Origin: Bodo saltans
Lineage: Eukaryota > Euglenozoa > Kinetoplastea > Eubodonida > Bodonidae
Length of the DNA: 20,881 nucleotides
Reading direction: 5' to 3'
NCBI GenBank assembly: GCA_001460835.1
Contig: CYKH01000223.1
Span: 1 to 20,881 of the forward strand
The notes beneath the pieces are model-generated. The model did not search any database. It was not told the DNA's origin and saw only the letters and a list, made by a program, of their open reading frames with translations. The number at the start of each line of letters is the position of its first letter. Position 1 is the stretch's first letter. A program made the position numbers and the translations under genes. Of the stretch, positions 6,052 to 18,461 are shown in pieces.

Positions 6052-9000
6052 ATGTCGTCAGGTCGCACTCCTACTCCGCCCCCTAACCCCCAAGGAGGAG
6101 GCGGTCACACCCCCTCCTCCGCACTGCACACCCCGCCTCCTAGTAGCCTCAGCCCAATCGGCAACAACAGCGGAAGCACCGCCAAGCCCACCTCTGCTGG
6201 AAAATCACGCCAAATTGCAGGCGGCCTTCCTCCACCATCAAAAGAATCGCATGTCACACCACAGCGTACGTTGCCTCCCGGTGCCCCTCGGCCAACGCTG
6301 CCCACCAGCGCCGCCCATCCACAACATTACGGAGGCTCACCAGACTCTATGCAAGGAGGCAGGTTTAGCATGGGTGGTGGTGCTGGAGGAAGCGGTATTG
6401 GTGATGCACAGATAGAAAATAATCGGTACGCGAGCTTCGTCCCAAGTGGTCTTGAAGAAGAACTGCACCCACTCTCGCTCGTCGCCACCCCGTTGCATCT
6501 TTACCGCCCCACGCAACAGCAGCAACAGCAGCAGCTCAGCAACTATCGCCCCGACTTTGAAAGCTCGCCACAGCAACAGCTTCAGCAAGTCAACGCTGCA
6601 TTGTCAGGGTCTACCAACCGATACCGCGATGCGGTCTCCCCCTCGAACCAAGCAGCTTCAGCTTCAGCAGCTCCTCACGTTGCTTCCCTTCGACAGTCTG
6701 TCGTGTGCGCCGCGTTAGGATCTCAACAAAATCGTGGTCGACTGTCCGCTATTGCCCCTTCTGTTCTTTCTTTAGCACTCTCACCGTCACAACAAAAACA
6801 ACAGCAGCAGCAGCAGTACAGCGTGCCCCCGGAGTTGTCTCCCAACGGCACAGCATCGTCGTCCTCTACCGTGCGAGGCGCCACCATGACGAGCCAAAGT
6901 ACCACCAACAACAACGCTGGAGTGGGAGAGGGAACCATCAACGGGAGTAGCACATCGCCTAACTCATCGTCTCCCAAGTCTCACAACAATTTACCGTCTC
7001 CAAATGGCGGTGGCGGTGGTGTTGGGATGGAAGCGTTTCTCTCCCCAGTGATGCCACAAGGGAGATACTTGATGTTGAACCTCCTCACCACATGGGGTGA
7101 CAGTGGAGAAGTCGGACTCAACGGTGTGGAGGTGTACGATCAGCGCGGCCTTCGCATTGTACCGACCCGCCGGTCAAGCACCAACAACAACAACCACGCT
7201 ACTGATGTAGTCCCACCGATTGCGTTCACTGTCGCCGCTGATACGCTTGGCGATAACGCCTCTAGCAGAGGCACGTCGCCCTTGTCGATTTCCTCGACCT
7301 CTGCAAGCTCACCGATCCAACATGGCAGTAGTGGCACTACCAGCGAGGGCATTCTCAACCCTCTCACAGAAATACTTCGTCAGCGTTACAACGTCGCTAA
7401 TTTAGTCAACGGCATTGTCCACACCACCGATGAGCACCGAATGTATGCGACGCCGTTCCGTAACGGCAAGCACCACCTCGTCTGCATAGGCTTCCCTGTG
7501 AGCGTTTCTATTTCTGCGATTCGATTGTTCAACTATCGTGGTGGTGGCCGATCTAAGACCAACAAAGGAGCGAGACTCATAGAAATGACTGTCGATGATC
7601 AACTGATATTCCGTGGAGAGATTGCGGAGTCCAACGGTGGCAATGTCGGAAATGTGCCTGCTGCGTCGCCTGAGTTCGAAGATTGTGAAACCATACTGTT
7701 CACGGAGGACAAGACTATTCTAGAGCGACTTTTTGTAGAAATGAGTCACAACCACAGTCCTCATTATCCCCAGCACGCTGCCGAGGACTCTGCTGCTACT
7801 GGAGCTCTGCTTCGCAATAGCACCACCACCGACGGTTATGGTGCACGAGGCAGCCGCCATCGAGGGGGAGGTGGCGTTGCGGATGTAGTACGTACCTCCA
7901 TTGCATTTGCTCCCTCCGCCCCGCTCCTCTCTCAACAGTTCTCTGAGATGTTCTCACCGATGGTGTACGGTGGAAAAACTGGCGCCGGAGACATGGGCCC
8001 GCCATCCGTTGCAAGTCTGAAAACACAAGTGGGCGTTAGTTCCCCATGTGCATTTCCTTCCGCCGCACCTAAACGCGTCACTTCCATTTGTATTCAGGTG
8101 GTCAGCACGTGGGGTGACGCCAACTTTGTGGGACTATCCGGTATCCGCCTCCGAGACCCCAGTGGTAACCCCATATTCAACGTCTCGCAGGTTCTCATTA
8201 ACCGCCCAAGTGGTAAGAAAGACGATGCAGGAGACGCTGAATTTGCAGCACTTCTTGATAACGATCCCAACACTGCATGCGTCTGGGCGTATGAGTCCGG
8301 GATTCAACTTGTGATTGTGTTCCAGCAGCCCGTGGACCTTGGGTTTATTGAGATTGCCAACTACTCGCTGGGACGAAAAACGTACTGTGGTGTGAAGTGT
8401 GCCCGAGTGTTCACGTCCACCATGCCAATTGTCAGCATCGCCACCGGTGGTGGTGGTGGTAGCAGTCACCACGCGTCGTCATCTGTGGCGAACCAACATC
8501 TGGCGTTTTTGTACGCATCGCTCTGGGACCAAGAAGCCGGTGCCCAGCTCTCCTCCACCGGCGGACTGTGTGAACTGACTCCCGGTGATGAGGGCATCAC
8601 GTTGCGGAAATCTCCCGCTACTATGGCAACGTTACGATTCCAAAGCTTTGATGTGTCCTTGGCCTCCTCACACGGTGGTGGTGGTGGTGGTGGCGCCCAT
8701 AGCTTGCGCCTTTCGATGAACACGAGGGCCGCGGTCGCCATTCGACGAGCGCGGCAGTCGCTTCTTGACCCCCCGCAGTGGTTGCTTGACCACCAAGCCT
8801 ACCTACCGTCCATCCTGCCCGTAGCGTACGTCTTTAAAGTAACGATTGCACTGTATGGGAAATCCTCTGCCCGCACCTTCAAGCACTTGTTGACAGCGTG
8901 GGCGTCTAGGCCGCACGATGCCCTGACGTTTATGAATGACTCTGGCCAGTTTGTGAATCCTCAAGAAGATGAGCTGTGGTGTGAGGGGCAGGTGACGGTC

Positions 9001-9507
9001 CTCGACTCAAAGGGGGGTGATGAGGGCGACAACAACGGTGACGACGATCTGGAAGACGATGGCATCGCAAAAGTGGCGGTGACTCTTATTTTTGTGTCTG
9101 ACTCCCTGTTCGCCATCGCAGCACTCTTCCTAAGAGCTCCCCTGATTCTTTTCGACGATAGTGCCATCAACAACGCAAACCACAGCAACACGCCACCAGC
9201 CCCAGGTGATGCTGGCACGAGTTGGGTGCAGTCTGTTCGAGTGTTTGCAGACGATACCCTTGTGTATCGCGGGCGGGATGCTGCGGTGTCACTTGACGGG
9301 CGCAATGGCGGCGATGCTGTTCATGTGGTGAACGTTGACAATGATGATGAGGCTGTTGATGAACGATCATCGCCAGTTCGTGCACTTGGGTTCGATGACG
9401 ATGTAGCAGCTCCAGCGAAGAATAACTCGAACAGCACTGTGCCGTCAGTGCTGTTTTTTACTCTGGACGACAGAGTGTTGCAAGCGTACCGACCTGCAGC
9501 CATGTGA
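6052..9507 (+). CDS. KATNIP: KATNIP-like ciliary protein with DUF4457 (katanin-interacting) repeats
   Basis: The 1151-residue product opens with a disordered Pro/Ser/Gly/Gln-rich region (1 to about 330). A KATNIP-type module (DUF4457) then starts at residue 338 with the hallmark LLTTWGDSGEVGLNGVEV, followed by FRNGKHHLVCIGFP, AIRLFNYRGG and MTVDDQLIFRGEIAES. A second module starts near 677 with VVSTWGDANFVGLSGIRL and continues through LLDNDPNTACVWAYE and IEIANYSLGRKTYCGVK. The C-terminal part (about 1030-1147) repeats the end of module 1: VRVFADDTLVYRG resembles MTVDDQLIFRG, and VLFFTLDDRVLQAY resembles ILFTEDKTILERL. KATNIP binds katanin and the ciliary base and axoneme in animals, so a flagellar microtubule role is inferred. 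Human KATNIP is longer (about 1,600 residues). The start ATG at 6052 follows CTCTACAA; no upstream in-frame alternative is needed. Confidence 0.8.
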   Translation: MSSGRTPTPPPNPQGGGGHTPSSALHTPPPSSLSPIGNNSGSTAKPTSAGKSRQIAGGLPPPSKESHVTPQRTLPPGAPRPTLPTSAAHPQHYGGSPDSMQGGRFSMGGGAGGSGIGDAQIENNRYASFVPSGLEEELHPLSLVATPLHLYRPTQQQQQQQLSNYRPDFESSPQQQLQQVNAALSGSTNRYRDAVSPSNQAASASAAPHVASLRQSVVCAALGSQQNRGRLSAIAPSVLSLALSPSQQKQQQQQQYSVPPELSPNGTASSSSTVRGATMTSQSTTNNNAGVGEGTINGSSTSPNSSSPKSHNNLPSPNGGGGGVGMEAFLSPVMPQGRYLMLNLLTTWGDSGEVGLNGVEVYDQRGLRIVPTRRSSTNNNNHATDVVPPIAFTVAADTLGDNASSRGTSPLSISSTSASSPIQHGSSGTTSEGILNPLTEILRQRYNVANLVNGIVHTTDEHRMYATPFRNGKHHLVCIGFPVSVSISAIRLFNYRGGGRSKTNKGARLIEMTVDDQLIFRGEIAESNGGNVGNVPAASPEFEDCETILFTEDKTILERLFVEMSHNHSPHYPQHAAEDSAATGALLRNSTTTDGYGARGSRHRGGGGVADVVRTSIAFAPSAPLLSQQFSEMFSPMVYGGKTGAGDMGPPSVASLKTQVGVSSPCAFPSAAPKRVTSICIQVVSTWGDANFVGLSGIRLRDPSGNPIFNVSQVLINRPSGKKDDAGDAEFAALLDNDPNTACVWAYESGIQLVIVFQQPVDLGFIEIANYSLGRKTYCGVKCARVFTSTMPIVSIATGGGGGSSHHASSSVANQHLAFLYASLWDQEAGAQLSSTGGLCELTPGDEGITLRKSPATMATLRFQSFDVSLASSHGGGGGGGAHSLRLSMNTRAAVAIRRARQSLLDPPQWLLDHQAYLPSILPVAYVFKVTIALYGKSSARTFKHLLTAWASRPHDALTFMNDSGQFVNPQEDELWCEGQVTVLDSKGGDEGDNNGDDDLEDDGIAKVAVTLIFVSDSLFAIAALFLRAPLILFDDSAINNANHSNTPPAPGDAGTSWVQSVRVFADDTLVYRGRDAAVSLDGRNGGDAVHVVNVDNDDEAVDERSSPVRALGFDDDVAAPAKNNSNSTVPSVLFFTLDDRVLQAYRPAAM
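6514..6534 (+). repeat. Poly-Gln CAA/CAG tract 1
   Basis: Seven consecutive CAA/CAG codons sit in the disordered N-terminal part of the KATNIP-like protein. The mixed codons suggest a fairly stable tract. Confidence 0.85.
6790..6816 (+). repeat. Poly-Gln CAA/CAG tract 2
   Basis: Eight Gln codons interrupted by one Lys (AAA) end in five pure CAG units, so this microsatellite could vary in length between alleles. Confidence 0.85.
8447..8461 (+). repeat. GGT microsatellite (poly-Gly) in the KATNIP-like gene
   Basis: A run of GGT units encodes five Gly before SSHH in a loop after the second DUF4457 module. A similar Gly run (GGT units and a final GGC) lies near 8675-8695. Both look like disordered, length-variable linkers. 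Confidence 0.8.
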
Positions 9508-11668: not shown

Positions 11669-12418
11669 ATGGTACTTTTTCATGGCCTTCGTGTGGCGCG
11701 TTACATTGCCCGCGGCCGATTCTTCGGGGGACCGAAGCTTGGCGTTTTCGATGAAGTCACTACGCATGTCTACGCAGGCTTTCGCATGATGGACGCCTTC
11801 ATGCATGTCAACAACGCCAGATACCTGGAGTTGTTCGAGTTCGCCCGATGGCATGAGGCGGGCGTGAAGCGGAGTATTTCCGCATTCAAAGCTGCAGGCA
11901 TCTACCCCACCATCGGTGCTGTGCACGTGCAGTTTATCAAGGAAGTCCCTCCGGCGTCGCTTGTGATGATCCGCTCACGCATTGTGAGTCTCGAGGACCG
12001 AACGTTTGTCATCCGTCAGCACATGTTCAACAAATCAGGGACGAAGTTGCACGCTACAGCACTGTTTCGCATGTCGCTTATCGATTCCCGTGGTGCCAAA
12101 CCAGCGACACTCTCCGCAGAAGAGGCGATTATTCGACTAGGATTTCAACCCGATGAAATTCGTTCCTTCGTGCAAGATGGTTGGTTAAAGGACCTGGCGG
12201 TGAACGATGACGGAAGTATCACCACACCACTTGCACAGCAACAACAGCAACCTTTGACGGGGGTGAACGCTGAGTCGTACACTGAGTCTGCCCTTCGAGT
12301 GTTGAAGGAGGTGAATGACATGGACATGCATTGGCGCCGTTTGATGCGAAGGTTGCAAAACCGAATTAAAAAGCCGTCAGAGAAAACAGAGAAGCGTAAA
12401 CCCCCAGTTCAATATTGA
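11669..12418 (+). CDS. Hotdog-fold (4HBT) acyl-CoA thioesterase-like protein, paralog 1
   Basis: The 249-residue product has the core of a 4HBT/YbgC-like thioesterase: MMDAFMHVNNARYLELFEFAR (residues 40-60) matches the family pattern D-x-x-x-HVNN-x-x-Y, with Asp42 at the expected catalytic position. VHVQFIKEVPP and the RTFVIRQHMF and KLHATALFRM strands continue the fold, as in THEM6-like proteins. The first 23 residues are basic and hydrophobic (five Arg, one His) and could be a mitochondrial leader or membrane anchor; this is inferred. After about residue 150 the sequence leaves the hotdog fold and becomes a charged helical tail (TESALRVLKEVNDMDMHWRR) ending in Lys/Arg/Pro. The substrate is not known; fatty acyl-CoA hydrolysis is the family's usual reaction. 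It forms a tandem pair with the gene at 12637. Confidence 0.8.
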   Translation: MVLFHGLRVARYIARGRFFGGPKLGVFDEVTTHVYAGFRMMDAFMHVNNARYLELFEFARWHEAGVKRSISAFKAAGIYPTIGAVHVQFIKEVPPASLVMIRSRIVSLEDRTFVIRQHMFNKSGTKLHATALFRMSLIDSRGAKPATLSAEEAIIRLGFQPDEIRSFVQDGWLKDLAVNDDGSITTPLAQQQQQPLTGVNAESYTESALRVLKEVNDMDMHWRRLMRRLQNRIKKPSEKTEKRKPPVQY

Positions 12419-12616: not shown

Positions 12617-12636
12617 AACGAATTTCTGCAGTCAGG

Positions 12637-13341
12637 ATGGTCCTACTCCACGTCGTTCGTAGCCTTCGCTATCTCGCCCGCGGAAGGTTTCTTTCCGGCC
12701 CCAAGATTGGCGTTTTCGACGAAGTCACCACGCACGTCTACGCAGGCTTCCGCATGATGGACGCTTTCATGCACGTCAACAACGCCAGATACCTGGAGTT
12801 GTTTGAGTTTGCCCGGTGGCATGAAGCCGGCGTGAAAAGAAGCGTCCCTTTGTTCAAAGCTGCTGGCATGTACCCAGTAGTCGGCGCTGTTCACATCCAA
12901 TTTATCAAAGAAGTTCCTCCGGCGTCGCTTGTGATGATCCGTACTAAAGTCGTGGGACTTGAAGACCGTGCGCTTGTGGCGCGTCAACACATGTTCAATA
13001 GAACCGGCACGAAGCTTCACGCCACTGCCATTTTTCGTGTGTCGCTCATTGACACGAGAAGCAAGAAGCCGGCCACTATTTCACCGAGCGAGGCACTCGC
13101 TCGGCTGGGACTTGATGAGGCGGAGGTTCGCTCTGCGGCGGAAGCAGCGTGGCTTCAAGACTTTGTCGCCACCGCTGACGACACTCAGTCAACGACACCG
13201 GAAGCATCACAAAAACAATCCGCTGAGAAGGAAGAAGCAATACGTGTGCTTCGTGATGTCAGCGTGCTTGACAACGACTGGCGCCGCATCATGAAGCGAC
13301 TTCAAGATAAATTAAAACCAACTAAAAAGAGCAACAAGTAA
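12637..13341 (+). CDS. Hotdog-fold (4HBT) acyl-CoA thioesterase-like protein, paralog 2
   Basis: From the chosen start the product is 234 residues and aligns without gaps to paralog 1 over the N-terminal leader and the hotdog core. Residues 25-69 are identical in both, including Asp42 and HVNN. The C-terminal third diverges (Thr/Ser/Gln/Glu-rich linker, then EAIRVLRDVSVLDNDWRRI) but keeps the same helical tail pattern and basic end. A longer reading of 263 residues from 12550 adds pyrimidine-tract translation (FFDFDICLFLSC) and is rejected. The pair could act as a homo- or heterodimer, since hotdog enzymes work as dimers or tetramers; this is an inference. The substrate is unknown. Confidence 0.8.
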   Translation: MVLLHVVRSLRYLARGRFLSGPKIGVFDEVTTHVYAGFRMMDAFMHVNNARYLELFEFARWHEAGVKRSVPLFKAAGMYPVVGAVHIQFIKEVPPASLVMIRTKVVGLEDRALVARQHMFNRTGTKLHATAIFRVSLIDTRSKKPATISPSEALARLGLDEAEVRSAAEAAWLQDFVATADDTQSTTPEASQKQSAEKEEAIRVLRDVSVLDNDWRRIMKRLQDKLKPTKKSNK

Positions 13342-13641
13342 AGAAAGCACTGTTCACACTATCCTTTTTCTCACTATGCACACAACTTTTTTTGTCAACT
13401 TCTTTTATTGCTTTCGTTTGACCATCCTTACACCTCTTGGCACGAGTAAAAGCGATGTCAGTTGCGTTTGTTTTATTTTTACTGTCTTTTTTGTCTTTTT
13501 TTTTTCTTTCTTCGTCAATAGAAAGACCACTCGTCTTTTCCGCCTTCACAGCACACAAAACGCAGCGTTCGCGCACCATCAAAAAACACAACTAACTTTC
13601 CGGAACCTTTTCCATCAAAAACAAACCACCACCATCAAAAC
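13342..13641. other. Intergenic region upstream of the reductase-Hcp fusion
   Basis: These 300 bases hold no gene. Two overlapping open frames, one on each strand, mostly translate T-rich or A-rich sequence and resemble nothing. The region contains the strongest pyrimidine tract in the window. Confidence 0.6.
13467..13521 (+). promoter_or_regulatory. Long pyrimidine tract and candidate trans-splice acceptor for the fusion gene
   Basis: About 45 bases of nearly unbroken T/C (13467-13513) end at CGTCAATAG, with AG at 13520-13521, giving a 5' UTR of about 120 bases before the ATG at 13642. A long, pure tract usually means efficient trans-splicing; strong expression is inferred only. Confidence 0.6.
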
Positions 13642-16600
13642 ATGCGCCGTTCATTCCAACGCTTGCTGTGTGCCACAACCCCCGTCGCCAAAGTCCTTGC
13701 GACAACAGTGAAGACGAGTGCGATCGCCGCCGACCTTGAAGCCCTCGCCCAGGCGAAGATTCAAAACTTGGCGTGCTGGAACAACCTGCCCCCCACCGCC
13801 AAGAGCGCCCTGAAGCTGTCCAGCATTGCCCTGTCCACCCTCGACGACGCCGCTGCTGCTGCCTCGGCCAAGACGGAGGCGCGTCCTGTGTGGATCGCCT
13901 TCGGGAGCCAAACAGGAACGGCAGAGTCGTACGCCCGCATGCTCGGGACGTACGCCGTCAGCCACGGCTTCCTTCCCAAGGTCCTCTCCATGGATGAGTG
14001 CGCAGTGCAGCTGACATCTGTCCCGCCTAGCCTCCTCCCCGATGCCATCCTGTTCGTGTGCTCCACCTACGGCACCGGTGAGTTCCCCTCCAACGCCAAG
14101 ATGTTTTGGAAAGCGTTGAGCGGGGACCAGCTGAATGTGCTCTCCGCCGTCCCGCACGCCGTGTTTGGCCTTGGCAATAGCCACAACGAGCACTTCAACG
14201 CCGCCGCCAAGTCACTCGTGCAGAAGCTGAAGACCGTTGGGTCGCCCAGCCTCATGCGGGCCCAGCTGAGCTGCGAGCTGCAGGCGAACGGCCACGACGC
14301 ACCGTTCCGAACGTGGAAGCGCTCCATCTGGGCAGCGCTGGGAAGCACAGCCGCCGTCGCGGTGCTCAAGCCGACCTACGCCGTCACAGAGTGCATCGCT
14401 GCCAAGGCGGATGAGCACGTCCTGCGCCATGGGTTCATCGCCGCCACTGTGCACCAAAACTCTATGATGACGCCAAAGGACTACGCTCCGCGAGTCCGAC
14501 TCATGCGCATCTCCTTAGACTGCGAGCAGCAGCGCCGCGCTTTTGGTCGCGTTGGCACGATCACCGACCACATCGAGATGTACCCGCGCAACAACGCAGC
14601 CCTCGTGGCACGTGCGGTGGCACGACTTGGCGTCAGCGCGTCCACTGTCGTGGAGGTGACGCCGCTCGCCGGTGCAGCCTCCAACCCCGCCTACGACTTC
14701 AAGAAGATGACAGTGTCGACGGTGCTAACGGAGATTGTGGACTTGTCCGCGATTCCCACGCGCTCCCTGCTGGAGACCTTGTCCCTGTGTGCAACGTCCA
14801 CGGAGGAGCGCGAACGGCTTGAGAACATCGCTGGCGACCTGAGCGTTGGCGGACTGTACGACCAGCTGGTGGCTGGCGTGTTCACGATTGTTGACGCCCT
14901 GGAGGCCTTCCCCAGCATTCAGCTGACGCTTGGCCAGGCGCTCACCGTCTTGCCTCACATTGCACTCCGCAGCTACTCCATTGCTTCGGACAACACAGAC
15001 GGCAACCACGCGTCGTTTGAGATTCTCTACAGCGTGCCAACGCGTTCATCATCGTCAGCGAGCAAGACCCATCAAGGCCTGTGCAGCTCAATGCTTGATC
15101 GCAGCGAGCCAGGGGATCACATTGCCGTCCGCCTTGTGCCAAGCAACATTGCTCTTCCACGAGACGACGCCCCGTGCGCTGTTGTGGCGCTTGGTACTGG
15201 CATCGGGTCAGCCCACGCGATTTTGCAGCATCGCTACCGCCTGCACAAGGAGGGCAAGTCCGTAGGACGCACACACCTCTTCTACGGCATGCGCCACCTT
15301 GAAACGGACTGCTTCTTCCGCAGTGACTTTGCGGAAATGCAGAAGTCAGGCTTCTTGACGACAACCTTCGTGCCCAGCCACGACGGGCCCAAGTTTGAAA
15401 CGCCCATGGACCGCTTTGACGCGTCGCTGGTGGAGCTGCTGGGGAAGAACGGCCACCTGTCGTACTGCGGCCTCGGTGGCTCTGTGCCCCTGGTCCTCGA
15501 GAACGCGCTGAGCCGCGTTGGCCTTGATGTCGCCGCGATGAGGTCCGAGGGACGACTGCACGAGGAGTTCTTCACTGTCGACGTGGACTCAGAGAATCTC
15601 TTCAAGAGCAGCACAACGGACGCCGGCGCAGCGACGCTTGCAGGGCGCATGGGGAAGTGCGACATGTTCTGCTTCCAGTGCGAACAGACCTTCAAGGGGA
15701 AGGGCTGCCACAAAGTCGGCGTCTGTGGAAAGACACCGCGAGTGGCTGCCCTGCAGGACTTGACGGTCCACGGCGCCAAGCACCTTGGCTTCTATGCACA
15801 CGAGCTCCGTCAACTCGGTGGCACCGTCTCGGATGCCGCCAACCGCTTCATGCTGTACTCGCTGTTCGCGACGCTGACCAACGTGAACTTCGACGAGTCC
15901 CGCTTCGTCAAGATCGTGAGGGAGCTGAGCTCGCTTGTGAGCGCAACTCGTGCCCAGTACGAGGAGCTTGCCCGCAAGAACAGCGCCACCATCGCGACTC
16001 CCGCCATCAAGGGCTTCCCCTCGGTGCTTCCCGCAGCCGCGGACGAGCTCGTCGCACTGGGGCGTGACGTCTCGGTTCTGCACCGCTTCACCGACGCTGC
16101 CACGCAGAACGCGGCTGGTGTGTCAGAGATGTTGGTCTACGGCTTGAAGGGGATTGCAGCGTACGCGGATCACGGTCTGATGAACAACGTCGAGTCCCAG
16201 GAGATCTACGTGTTCATGCAGAAGGCCCTAGCGTTCCTCGCCTCCAGCGAGCAGTATGACTTAGGAAAGGGCCTGGCCCTTTCCCTCGAGGCGGGCACGA
16301 TCAACGTGACCACCATGGGTCTGCTGTACCAGAGTAACGCAAGCCTGGGCGTCCCAACCCCCACACCGGTGGCGGTGAAGCCGACGGCCGGCAAGGCCAT
16401 TCTTGTCTCCGGGCACGACCTCATCATCCTCAAGGGACTTCTGGAGAAGACGGAGAAGCTCGGCATCAACGTGTACACCCACGGCGAGATGCTCCCAGCC
16501 CACTCGTATCCCAAGCTGAAGGCGCACAAGAATCTTGTCGGTCACTTCGGTGGTGCGTGGATGCGACAGAGTGTGGAGTTCCCCCACTTCCCAGGGCCTG

Positions 16601-17385
16601 TGCTGATGACCACCAACTGCCTCACGGAGCCCCACGAGACATACCGTGCCCGTCTGTTCACGGCCGGTGCAGTAGGTTGGAACGGCATTCCCCACGCCGG
16701 AAACAACATGAGCGACATCAACTTCGACGCGCTCATCAACGCTGCGCTGAATGAGTCTGTGGGCTTCGGCAACGAGCGGGAGTTCTCCTACGCAGATCCC
16801 ATCGGCACGTCGCGCCCGGCCTCGCTGACGGTTGGCTTCGGACACGAGACAATCCTGTCCGTTGCCCCAACGATCCTCGAGGAGATTAAGAAGGGCAACA
16901 TCACGCGCTTTTTCTTGGTGGGCGGCTGTGATGGGTACGAGGGAGACCGCAGCTATTACACGGATCTCGTTGCGAAGCTGCCACCGACCGCGGTGGTGCT
17001 CACGGTGGGCTGCGGGAAGTACCGCTTCAACTACATGGACAAGGGCACCATCGGCGACACCGGCATCCCCCGCATCCTCGATATGGGACAGTGCAACGAC
17101 AGCTTCAGCGCGGTGCAGGTTGCGTTGGCTCTTGCAAAGGCGCTGAACTGCACACCTGCTGACCTGCCCCTCTCCATCGTGCTCTCGTGGTTCGAACAGA
17201 AGGCCATCGCCGTGCTGCTGTCGTGCCTTGCCCTTGGCCTCAAGCCCATTCACGTTGGCCCTGCCCTGCCTGCGTTCATTACGCCTGACGTTCTTGATGT
17301 GCTTGTCACCAAGTTTGGCGTGTGCCCTCTGGGTGACGTGAACAAAGACCTGGAGAAGATGCTCGCCGCGACTGGGGCATCTTAA
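13642..17385 (+). CDS. hcp: Diflavin reductase-hybrid cluster protein fusion (NADPH-dependent Hcp)
   Basis: The 1247-residue product has four parts. (a) Residues 1 to about 30 are basic and Ser/Thr/Ala-rich, a likely mitochondrial leader. (b) A flavodoxin domain (about 84-230) carries FGSQTGTAESYA, CSTYGTGEFPSNA and FGLGNSHNEHFN for FMN. (c) A CPR/sulfite-reductase-type FAD/NADP domain (about 250-655) carries RSYS (443-446), GLCSSML, LGTGIG and FYGMR. (d) A hybrid cluster protein (about 670-1247) has CFQC-x8-C-x5-C (Cys677, 680, 689, 695) for a class-I [4Fe-4S] cluster. All known hybrid-cluster ligands are present: His925, Glu949, Cys993, Cys1096, Cys1124, Cys1151 and Glu1185, with Lys1187. 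Hcp reduces nitric oxide or hydroxylamine and normally needs a separate reductase (Hcr in enterics); here NADPH to FAD to FMN to [4Fe-4S] to hybrid cluster could run in one chain. By eye the gene is richer in G/C at third positions than its neighbours. Domain calls are firm; physiology and location are inferred. Confidence 0.92.
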   Translation: MRRSFQRLLCATTPVAKVLATTVKTSAIAADLEALAQAKIQNLACWNNLPPTAKSALKLSSIALSTLDDAAAAASAKTEARPVWIAFGSQTGTAESYARMLGTYAVSHGFLPKVLSMDECAVQLTSVPPSLLPDAILFVCSTYGTGEFPSNAKMFWKALSGDQLNVLSAVPHAVFGLGNSHNEHFNAAAKSLVQKLKTVGSPSLMRAQLSCELQANGHDAPFRTWKRSIWAALGSTAAVAVLKPTYAVTECIAAKADEHVLRHGFIAATVHQNSMMTPKDYAPRVRLMRISLDCEQQRRAFGRVGTITDHIEMYPRNNAALVARAVARLGVSASTVVEVTPLAGAASNPAYDFKKMTVSTVLTEIVDLSAIPTRSLLETLSLCATSTEERERLENIAGDLSVGGLYDQLVAGVFTIVDALEAFPSIQLTLGQALTVLPHIALRSYSIASDNTDGNHASFEILYSVPTRSSSSASKTHQGLCSSMLDRSEPGDHIAVRLVPSNIALPRDDAPCAVVALGTGIGSAHAILQHRYRLHKEGKSVGRTHLFYGMRHLETDCFFRSDFAEMQKSGFLTTTFVPSHDGPKFETPMDRFDASLVELLGKNGHLSYCGLGGSVPLVLENALSRVGLDVAAMRSEGRLHEEFFTVDVDSENLFKSSTTDAGAATLAGRMGKCDMFCFQCEQTFKGKGCHKVGVCGKTPRVAALQDLTVHGAKHLGFYAHELRQLGGTVSDAANRFMLYSLFATLTNVNFDESRFVKIVRELSSLVSATRAQYEELARKNSATIATPAIKGFPSVLPAAADELVALGRDVSVLHRFTDAATQNAAGVSEMLVYGLKGIAAYADHGLMNNVESQEIYVFMQKALAFLASSEQYDLGKGLALSLEAGTINVTTMGLLYQSNASLGVPTPTPVAVKPTAGKAILVSGHDLIILKGLLEKTEKLGINVYTHGEMLPAHSYPKLKAHKNLVGHFGGAWMRQSVEFPHFPGPVLMTTNCLTEPHETYRARLFTAGAVGWNGIPHAGNNMSDINFDALINAALNESVGFGNEREFSYADPIGTSRPASLTVGFGHETILSVAPTILEEIKKGNITRFFLVGGCDGYEGDRSYYTDLVAKLPPTAVVLTVGCGKYRFNYMDKGTIGDTGIPRILDMGQCNDSFSAVQVALALAKALNCTPADLPLSIVLSWFEQKAIAVLLSCLALGLKPIHVGPALPAFITPDVLDVLVTKFGVCPLGDVNKDLEKMLAATGAS

Positions 17386-17876: not shown

Positions 17877-18461
17877 ATGGGAAGTTCAGCCAAAGCACCA
17901 ATTGCCCTCATGTCGAGGTACCACCTGTGGGCAAATGACCGACTGGTCACGTCCATCAAAGACGCCGTCAAGCACTGCAACGGAAAGAAGATTTATCGCA
18001 ACAACGACGGCTCGTATTTCGGCTCCATCAAGAACACGCTAGCGCACATTTCTGGGGTGGACGACATGTGGTACTTGCGTGTGACCAAAGGCGGCGCCTC
18101 CGCGGCGTCGTACAATTATTACTACAGCGTGCCGTGAGGAGGGAGGCTTACCCCCTGCGACATGTTGCTGAAGTTGTAACGTACGCTCTGCAACAACTTC
18201 TTAAGAGTCGGATGGGTGGACTACGTAGAGAGTTTAGACGACGATGCGCTGTTTGCCAATGTGTGCTTCGAAGACACGAAGCACATTCCCGTAGAGAAGC
18301 AGCGAGGGGCGTCGCTTCTTCACGTGTTCAATCACGGCACTCACCATCGAGGGCAAATTCACACAGCGCTCACGTCGGTCGTGCAGGGTGCTGTGCGACA
18401 ATTTGCACCATCACTTGATATGCCACTCATGGAAATCGATTTTAAGATCAGGGGCAAGTGA
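17877..18461 (+). pseudogene. DinB-family gene interrupted by two in-frame stops
   Basis: The first part (17877-18137) reads MSRYHLWANDRLVTSIKDAV, GSYFGSIKNTLAHISGVDDMW: helices 1 and 2 of a DinB/YfiT-type four-helix bundle with the first metal-ligand His. The last part (up to 18461, same frame) reads WVDYVESLDDDAL and LLHVFNHGTHHRGQIHTAL, with the NHGTHHRGQ metal-site motif of helix 4. TGA at 18135 and TAA at 18177 lie between them. In the second forward frame, 18134-18212 is open and reads YPLRHVAEVVTYALQQLLKSR, which fits the start of helix 3 and would join WVDYVESL correctly. Two compensating single-base shifts therefore restore a full protein. A 72-base GT-AG intron (18134-18205) would also remove both stops in frame but would delete helix 3. 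DinB proteins bind a metal; some act as thiol transferases, and this one's function is unknown. I cannot tell a real pseudogene from sequence error. Confidence 0.75.

Follow-up and report, generated by a model that had tools for sequence, protein, structure and literature searches.

A predicted one-chain fusion of a diflavin-type reductase and a class I hybrid cluster protein in a kinetoplastid

Pyruvate:NADP+ oxidoreductase, present in Euglena among others, is a protein in which a P450-reductase-type module is joined to an Fe-S enzyme. Diflavin flavoproteins of the CysJ type commonly go by the name 'sulfite reductase'. Fusions of FeFe-hydrogenase and CysJ (HydA-CysJ) also exist in anaerobic eukaryotes, according to PMC10703272. 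Among the hybrid cluster proteins (Hcps), the Hcp-Hcr system is described as an NO reductase yielding N2O (PMC11633192, PMC7412212); for class I HCP, a 2023 paper calls the source of electrons unknown and notes that NAD(P)H could reduce the protein exergonically (PMC10210160). A 2006 survey places kinetoplastids among the lineages that, under common inheritance, would be required to have lost the Hcp gene (PMC1484493). As for an Hcp fused to a reductase, the only report found in the portions of the open-licence literature covered is a table footnote in PMC8003979, according to which an HCP gene of Cyanophora paradoxa forms a fusion with one for 'sulfite reductase'. The earlier note on the DNA studied here had left open whether such a fusion was already described; a similar one has been noted once.

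Here we describe a kinetoplastid gene in which an Hcp and a reductase share one reading frame. Within the whole stretch of DNA analysed (20,881 nucleotides, hereafter the window, with an N count of 0), an uninterrupted forward-strand frame (13642-17385, 1247 codons open) encodes 1247 amino acids in the order FMN flavodoxin, FAD domain, diverged NADP domain, 30-residue linker and complete class I Hcp. The Hcp half (residues 675-1247; 15664..17385, + strand) matches Prismane (PF03063) at residues 675-1238 with an E-value of 3.8e-129, covering family positions 1-513 of 513, and exceeds the cut-offs of the NCBIfam models PRK05290 'hydroxylamine reductase' (627.4 bits vs 367) and TIGR01703 (589.1 bits vs 360.8). 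The Pfam and NCBIfam matches of the protein lie far beyond chance. The N-terminal [4Fe-4S] cysteines C677, C680, C689 and C695 are spaced CX2CX8CX5C, and the columns of H925, E949, C993, C1096, C1124, C1151 and E1185, which we take to be the seven hybrid-cluster ligands, are invariant across a nine-row Hcp alignment. In phmmer alignments to solved Hcps, the cysteine motif is ungapped against 1e2u and shows a 3+1 residue gap against 7de4, and the 4-residue class II insertion is absent. Under the definition given in PMC10210160, the Hcp half is class I by its cysteine spacing, and a hybrid Fe-S-O cluster is predicted.

The reductase half begins with a flavodoxin domain (residues 85-225; 13894..14316, + strand; PF00258 Flavodoxin_1, 2.3e-23) carrying the motifs GSQTGTAES, STYGTGEFPSN and GLGNSHNEHF, followed by an FAD-binding domain of P450-reductase type (residues 286-483; 14497..15090, + strand; PF00667 FAD_binding_1, 4.3e-24) with the motifs RSYSIAS and GLCSSML. 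This succession is the diflavin order of the P450-reductase family, and P450 reductases are the best solved relatives of this half. Most of what the earlier note had claimed of the architecture is borne out: a single frame of 1247 residues, open throughout, with flavodoxin, FAD and Hcp domains that match Pfam; FMN and FAD motifs; a class I Hcp lacking the class II insertion; and the full set of four plus seven cluster ligands. Its description of an FAD/NADP reductase stands for homology and is qualified for the cofactor site. The NADP(H)-binding domain (residues 505-644; 15154..15573, + strand) is recognised by phmmer, whose match to a protein fusing P450 with P450 reductase reaches 2.1e-15, and by hhalign (97.9% probability, 3.6e-13), whereas NAD_binding_1 (PF00175) scores 17.4 bits against a cut-off of 22, over the first half of the domain only. 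At positions that are presumably the phosphate and nicotinamide sites, SR has become SH, YVQ is lost and CGD has become CGL; in addition, GRYxxDxW has become GRLHEEFF and the C-terminal helix region is shortened. Because several nucleotide-binding positions have changed, the NADPH of the earlier note is weakened, and its use is something we infer.

The fusion could accordingly be real and its nucleotide domain no longer take NADPH, the flavin domains being served by NADH or another donor. The altered motifs, the shortened helix region and the sub-threshold NAD_binding_1 match all favour this reading, but the domain keeps the serine and one lysine at the phosphate site, the cysteine of catalytic type and an aromatic residue at the C-terminus (F for W/Y), and its hhalign probability is still high, so we regard the loss of NADPH as unlikely. 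A recent duplication of one of the organism's own genes was considered as the source of the reductase half and is ruled out by its identity of 20-25% to three own diflavin proteins; identity to seven bacterial rows is 24-28%. Viral contigs, scanned both with an alignment of the reductase and with the full-length protein, yielded no relative. An AlphaFold prediction of the reductase half alone, run without an alignment, reached a pLDDT of 37, at which the fold is unreliable.

The two halves are joined by a 30-residue linker (residues 645-674; 15574..15663, + strand) between the reductase C-terminal aromatic residue and Hcp Met675. Upstream of the gene lies a pyrimidine-rich tract followed by AG (13477..13530, + strand), whose best 20-nt window has 20/20 pyrimidines (T 17/20) and which, as read from the sequence, is a likely trans-splice acceptor region; ATG is absent between 13530 and 13642. 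No such tract occurs at the junction, where the best 20-nt window has 15 pyrimidines and 7 T, compared with 16-20 and 12-17 in six spacers. Elsewhere in the gene, a 20-nt window at 17167 contains 17 pyrimidines, inside the spacer range, and the T count is at most 9 in any 20-nt window of the gene. The GC3 values of the two halves, 0.78 and 0.80, lie above the 0.55-0.66 of seven further genes in the window and the 0.43-0.59 of four further flavoprotein genes of the organism; one ribosomal protein gene has 0.83. The codon bias thus appears ribosomal-protein-like, resembling that of a gene expressed strongly and under a single regime. Since this bias is common to both halves and the junction has no pyrimidine tract, the fused gene probably yields one mRNA and one polypeptide.

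An assembly error joining two genes, or two proteins made from one gene, would be the obvious alternative, given that a single assembly is the source and that methionines M670 and M675 sit at the Hcp boundary. We consider it very improbable: the window is free of N, one frame runs through the junction with equal GC3 on both sides and no pyrimidine tract between them, and a comparable gene fusion is on record in Cyanophora (PMC8003979). The single coding unit envisaged in the earlier note is thereby upheld, and its mitochondrial leader fares less well. The N-terminal leader and alanine-rich stretch (residues 1-84; 13642..13893, + strand), a putative mitochondrial targeting peptide by composition and hydrophobic moment, has five R/K and no D/E in its first 30 residues, but its moment of 0.55 was reached by 96 of 2000 shuffles, and a mitochondrial leader is plausible only.

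The host is a kinetoplastid, in agreement with the flagellate proposed earlier. The neighbours in the window include thioesterases, SCO1 and DinB pieces, with no nitrogen-metabolism context among them, and the fused gene is richer in GC than these neighbours. PADLOC on the fusion protein and Rfam and tRNA scans of the window were empty. In six-frame searches of the genome, whose assembly may be incomplete, no other Hcp, no POR_N (pyruvate:ferredoxin oxidoreductase; 10/14 control genomes positive) and no NIR_SIR was found, and the sole Fe-hydrogenase match is Nar1-like. Were the contig bacterial contamination, the mostly prokaryotic distribution of Hcp and the raised GC of the gene would be explained; this is nonetheless the least probable of the readings considered here, and extremely so, as the same contig carries DUF4457, GOST, TLC and SCO1 (Pfam), which we take to be eukaryotic-type genes, its intergenic spacers look kinetoplastid-like, and no prokaryotic Hcp among the matches listed exceeds 49% identity to the fusion.

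The same fusion was sought in prokaryotes and viruses. In all, 1605 prokaryote genome searches (22+398+395+398+392, four centre genomes appearing twice) yielded matches in 857, one of which matched solely below the cut-off; among the matches listed, the longest frame of an Hcp over the cut-off was 854 aa, the best candidates per genome having been scored, such that lower-ranked fusions could remain. One genome (G014) has an 18-bit match, below the cut-off, inside a 1730-aa frame. At 92 loci, comprising 80 from genomes (the best 80 of at least 585 relatives), 8 from plasmids (8 records examined of 46 with matches) and 4 viral, no fusion was found; the phage search gave matches in 10 records, none of them among the 92. 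No locus had an in-frame open stretch of more than 114 codons upstream of the Hcp start, one of them (L021) starting at the edge of its record, and tblastn with the reductase half (E 1e-4) detected no relative in the flanks, many of them short. On the loci and matches listed, a bacterial origin of the fusion was rejected. Trees of both halves had also been suggested; that of the Hcp half (92 rows: the fusion and 91 of the 92 loci, one of less than 500 aa being left out; drawn open, from prokaryotic and viral relatives with no eukaryotic Hcp) has the fusion at the end of a long branch (1.42, the median being 0.27) within a mixed group (fork support 87), a position from which no donor is nameable.

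Beyond the domain content, the conserved ligands and flavin motifs, the signs of one coding unit and the host group, which were observed, we propose, with somewhat more confidence than doubt, that the protein is a self-sufficient, one-chain, NAD(P)H-driven NO/hydroxylamine reductase of a kinetoplastid, probably mitochondrial, for which cofactor binding, electron path, substrate, compartment and the use of NADPH instead of NADH are inferred. A pyridine nucleotide, most likely NADPH, would hand hydride to FAD, from which electrons would pass to the FMN of the flavodoxin domain, on to the N-terminal [4Fe-4S] cubane of the Hcp and finally into the hybrid cluster, the site at which NO would be converted to N2O and/or hydroxylamine to ammonia. 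The fused reductase would take the place of a separate electron donor, so that the Hcp could function in a cell lacking PFO or hydrogenase to maintain low-potential ferredoxin in its reduced state; the mitochondrion would be its probable site, and low oxygen or nitrosative load the probable conditions. A more specific version, a highly expressed one-piece NADPH-driven NO reductase acting on a hybrid cluster in a kinetoplastid with an otherwise respiratory mitochondrion, is advanced tentatively, as possible rather than probable. The main job might instead lie outside NO removal, in the reduction of hydroxylamine or peroxide or in signalling by S-nitrosylation, each such role having been reported or proposed for Hcps (PMC7412212, PMC6934886, PMC10210160). 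We find this somewhat unlikely, as recent reports favour NO reduction (PMC10210160, PMC7412212, PMC11633192) and a fused reductase suits a reductive role.

On the tentative reading of a highly expressed NADPH-driven NO reductase, a eukaryote would have a way of turning NO into N2O that does not depend on P450, and the electron donor of one class I Hcp would be known, being attached to it. The fusion points to a candidate type of donor for class I Hcp, whose donor was called unknown in 2023 (PMC10210160); it sets the stoichiometry at 1:1 and offers one purifiable protein for measuring electron flow from nucleotide to hybrid cluster. That question is a little less open since Hcp-Hcr complexes were proposed in Geobacteraceae (PMC11633192, 2024); two Geomonas Hcps (L029, L068) lack the class II insertion, so some Hcps with the class I spacing may already have a separate Hcr as their partner. 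In addition, the fusion places an Hcp in kinetoplastids.

Like pyruvate:NADP+ oxidoreductase, the protein combines a P450-reductase-type module and an Fe-S enzyme in one chain, but the catalytic part of the former is PFO and the fusion has no PFO domain. The Cyanophora fusion possibly has the same architecture, as compared by table description alone, given the name that CysJ-type flavoproteins commonly carry. Both comprise a eukaryotic Hcp, joined in Cyanophora to a gene named sulfite reductase, but that host is a glaucophyte alga rather than a kinetoplastid and the table gives no subunit, order or function (PMC8003979). The class I Hcps of Desulfovibrio and Methanothermococcus (PDB 1e2u, 8cnr) share full-length homology, cysteine spacing and all ligands with the Hcp half, but they are stand-alone proteins whose donor has been called unknown (PMC10210160). 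In the enteric pair, a proposed NO reductase, an NAD(P)H flavoprotein likewise drives Hcp, but the Hcp is of class II and Hcr, an FAD reductase whose gene often lies next to hcp, is separate; an Hcr-like ferredoxin-type 2Fe-2S domain is absent from the fusion protein and from nine other window frames (Pfam). The parallel with other reductase/Fe-S fusions drawn in the earlier note extends to HydA-CysJ of anaerobic eukaryotes, in which a CysJ-type reductase is joined to a complex Fe-S enzyme in protists, although there the catalytic part is a hydrogenase and CysJ is C-terminal, whereas the reductase of the kinetoplastid fusion is N-terminal (PMC10703272). With this find, the attachment of one reductase type to various Fe-S enzymes in protists gains a further example.

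The gene at 13642-17385 (+) runs through 1247 uninterrupted codons in a window containing no N, which bears out the single frame described in the earlier note, and by its sequence the fusion gene is real, intact and unusual. In the domain search, Flavodoxin_1 (residues 85-225), FAD_binding_1 (286-483) and Prismane (675-1238), all on the forward strand, scored far above cut-off, and a nucleotide-binding domain between the latter two was recovered by phmmer and profile comparison. A linker of 30 residues leads from the terminal aromatics of the reductase half (F643, F644) to Met675. Both FMN and FAD motifs are recognisable in the reductase half, as previously claimed. The assignment as an NADPH reductase holds in part. 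The nucleotide-binding domain aligns with P450-reductase-type domains (phmmer 2.1e-15, residues 461-632; profile comparison 97.9%, 3.6e-13), but stays under the Pfam cut-off (17.4 versus 22 bits), and several site residues have changed: SR to SH, CGD to CGL and the terminal GRYxxDxW to GRLHEEFF, with the YVQ stretch gone. One serine, one lysine, the cysteine and an aromatic are kept; the roles of these changed and kept residues are those we presume. Since the site is altered, we give the cofactor as NAD(P)H.

The Hcp half exceeds both NCBIfam hydroxylamine reductase models, each by more than 200 bits, and aligns over its full length with the solved Hcps 7de4 (3e-130), 1e2u (7e-120) and 8cnr (3e-119), of which we take 7de4 to be the E. 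coli protein and 1e2u that of D. vulgaris. H925, E949, C993, C1096, C1124, C1151 and E1185 occupy invariant columns in an alignment of nine sequences; presuming that these are the seven hybrid-cluster ligands, the earlier claim of a complete set is upheld. The CX2CX8CX5C motif is ungapped relative to 1e2u and four residues shorter than that of 7de4, the difference by which PMC10210160 separates class I from class II.

The genome belongs to a kinetoplastid host. With up to two mismatches allowed, the spliced-leader 3' end turns up at 27 places, 25 in forward and 2 in reverse orientation and just 2 of them exact, compared with no occurrence of a backward control, and at one place directly precedes an RPL37A frame whose best solved relatives are first trypanosomatid, then Euglena, going by the presumed source organisms of the PDB entries. 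This leader end also lies beside N runs and at two contig starts (locus L002 1-19 among the places), and once it is joined to the start of an mRNA; cDNA carrying the leader appears to have made its way into the assembly or the scaffolding. In kinetoplastid genomes, a separate mRNA requires a pyrimidine tract and an AG. The best 20 nt in six spacers, the fusion's own included, hold 16-20 pyrimidines (T 12-17), with 20/20 pyrimidines 5' of the fusion gene, while the 265 nt ahead of Met675 reach at most 15 (T 7). Position 17167, inside the gene, has 17 pyrimidines per 20 nt and counts against a one-unit reading; T never rises above 9 in any 20-nt stretch of the gene. GC3 measures 0.78 in one half and 0.80 in the other, far above seven other window genes (0.55-0.66), and compares with 0.43-0.59 in four other flavoprotein genes of the host and 0.63 in a Nar1-like gene; it comes near the 0.83 of RPL37A, the sole ribosomal gene examined. 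A GC-rich donor is an alternative source of such values; our reading is that the pattern reflects strong expression of one coding unit.

Directly upstream lies a tandem 4HBT_2 thioesterase-like pair (11669-12418 and 12634-13341; 65% identity across 243 aligned positions). Downstream, two DinB-family pieces (17877-18134, scoring below cut-off, and 18210-18458) share a frame with in-frame stops between them, suggesting a decayed or interrupted gene. A 1151-aa protein of the DUF4457 family, known from ciliary KATNIP, occupies 6052-9507 in low-complexity surroundings. Elsewhere in the host assembly (G000), L011 60-4610 (G000:C732) encodes a multi-flavodoxin reductase of 1516 aa, in which FAD and NADP domains come after three flavodoxin domains, and L014 1644-3356 (G000:C188) a protein of 570 aa with an N-terminal Oxidored-like domain, FAD_binding_1 and no flavodoxin match.

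The fusion is the only Prismane match in the host genome, where POR_N and NIR_SIR have no match (10/14 and 11/14 control genomes positive, respectively) and the single Fe_hyd_lg_C match is a 557-aa protein that we take, from its motif, to be Nar1-like. The SCO1 gene encoded in the window points to a respiratory chain. Electrons would probably pass from nucleotide to FAD, FMN, cubane and hybrid cluster, and then to NO or hydroxylamine, a downhill flow given the class I hybrid cluster potential of -250 to -150 mV against -320 mV for NAD(P)H stated in PMC10210160. With neither PFO nor hydrogenase found in the searched assembly, we infer that having its reductase attached would free the enzyme, and the cell, from the need for a low-potential ferredoxin pool. 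In bacteria, the role favoured at present in PMC11633192 and PMC7412212 is reduction of NO to N2O by Hcp-Hcr; the latter describes the algal role as unsolved.

No reductase-Hcp fusion occurred at any of 92 Hcp loci, or among the listed frames over cut-off from 1605 prokaryote genome searches (four genomes counted twice; 857 matching genomes). Among eukaryotic genomes, the search covered G000 alone. The closest prokaryotic identity to the fusion Hcp is 48% among the best tblastn matches listed and 49% by alignment, and in the tree the fusion sits on a long branch and has no obvious sister. PMC10210160 calls the electron donor of class I Hcp unknown. Some Hcps with class I spacing may be served by a separate Hcr, given the Hcp-Hcr system proposed for Geobacteraceae in PMC11633192 and two Geomonas Hcps (L029, L068) without the class II insertion, and the fusion is one of what may be several answers to the donor question. 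Its value is that class I electron supply becomes testable on one protein.

Our searches of an open-access library brought up no characterised Hcp fusion, and no Hcp in any kinetoplastid; in the article texts, 'hydroxylamine' and 'prismane' are absent from the kinetoplastid paper PMC7052976, and 'prismane', 'hydroxylamine reductase' and 'hybrid cluster' have zero counts in PMC4728078 and PMC7859406. A similar fusion has been mentioned once before, in an unrelated alga. Table 4 of PMC8003979 marks the HCP gene of that alga, Cyanophora paradoxa, alone among its HCPs, as fused to a sulfite reductase gene; if this 'sulfite reductase' is the diflavin subunit, the Cyanophora and Bodo genes would share the same or a mirrored architecture.
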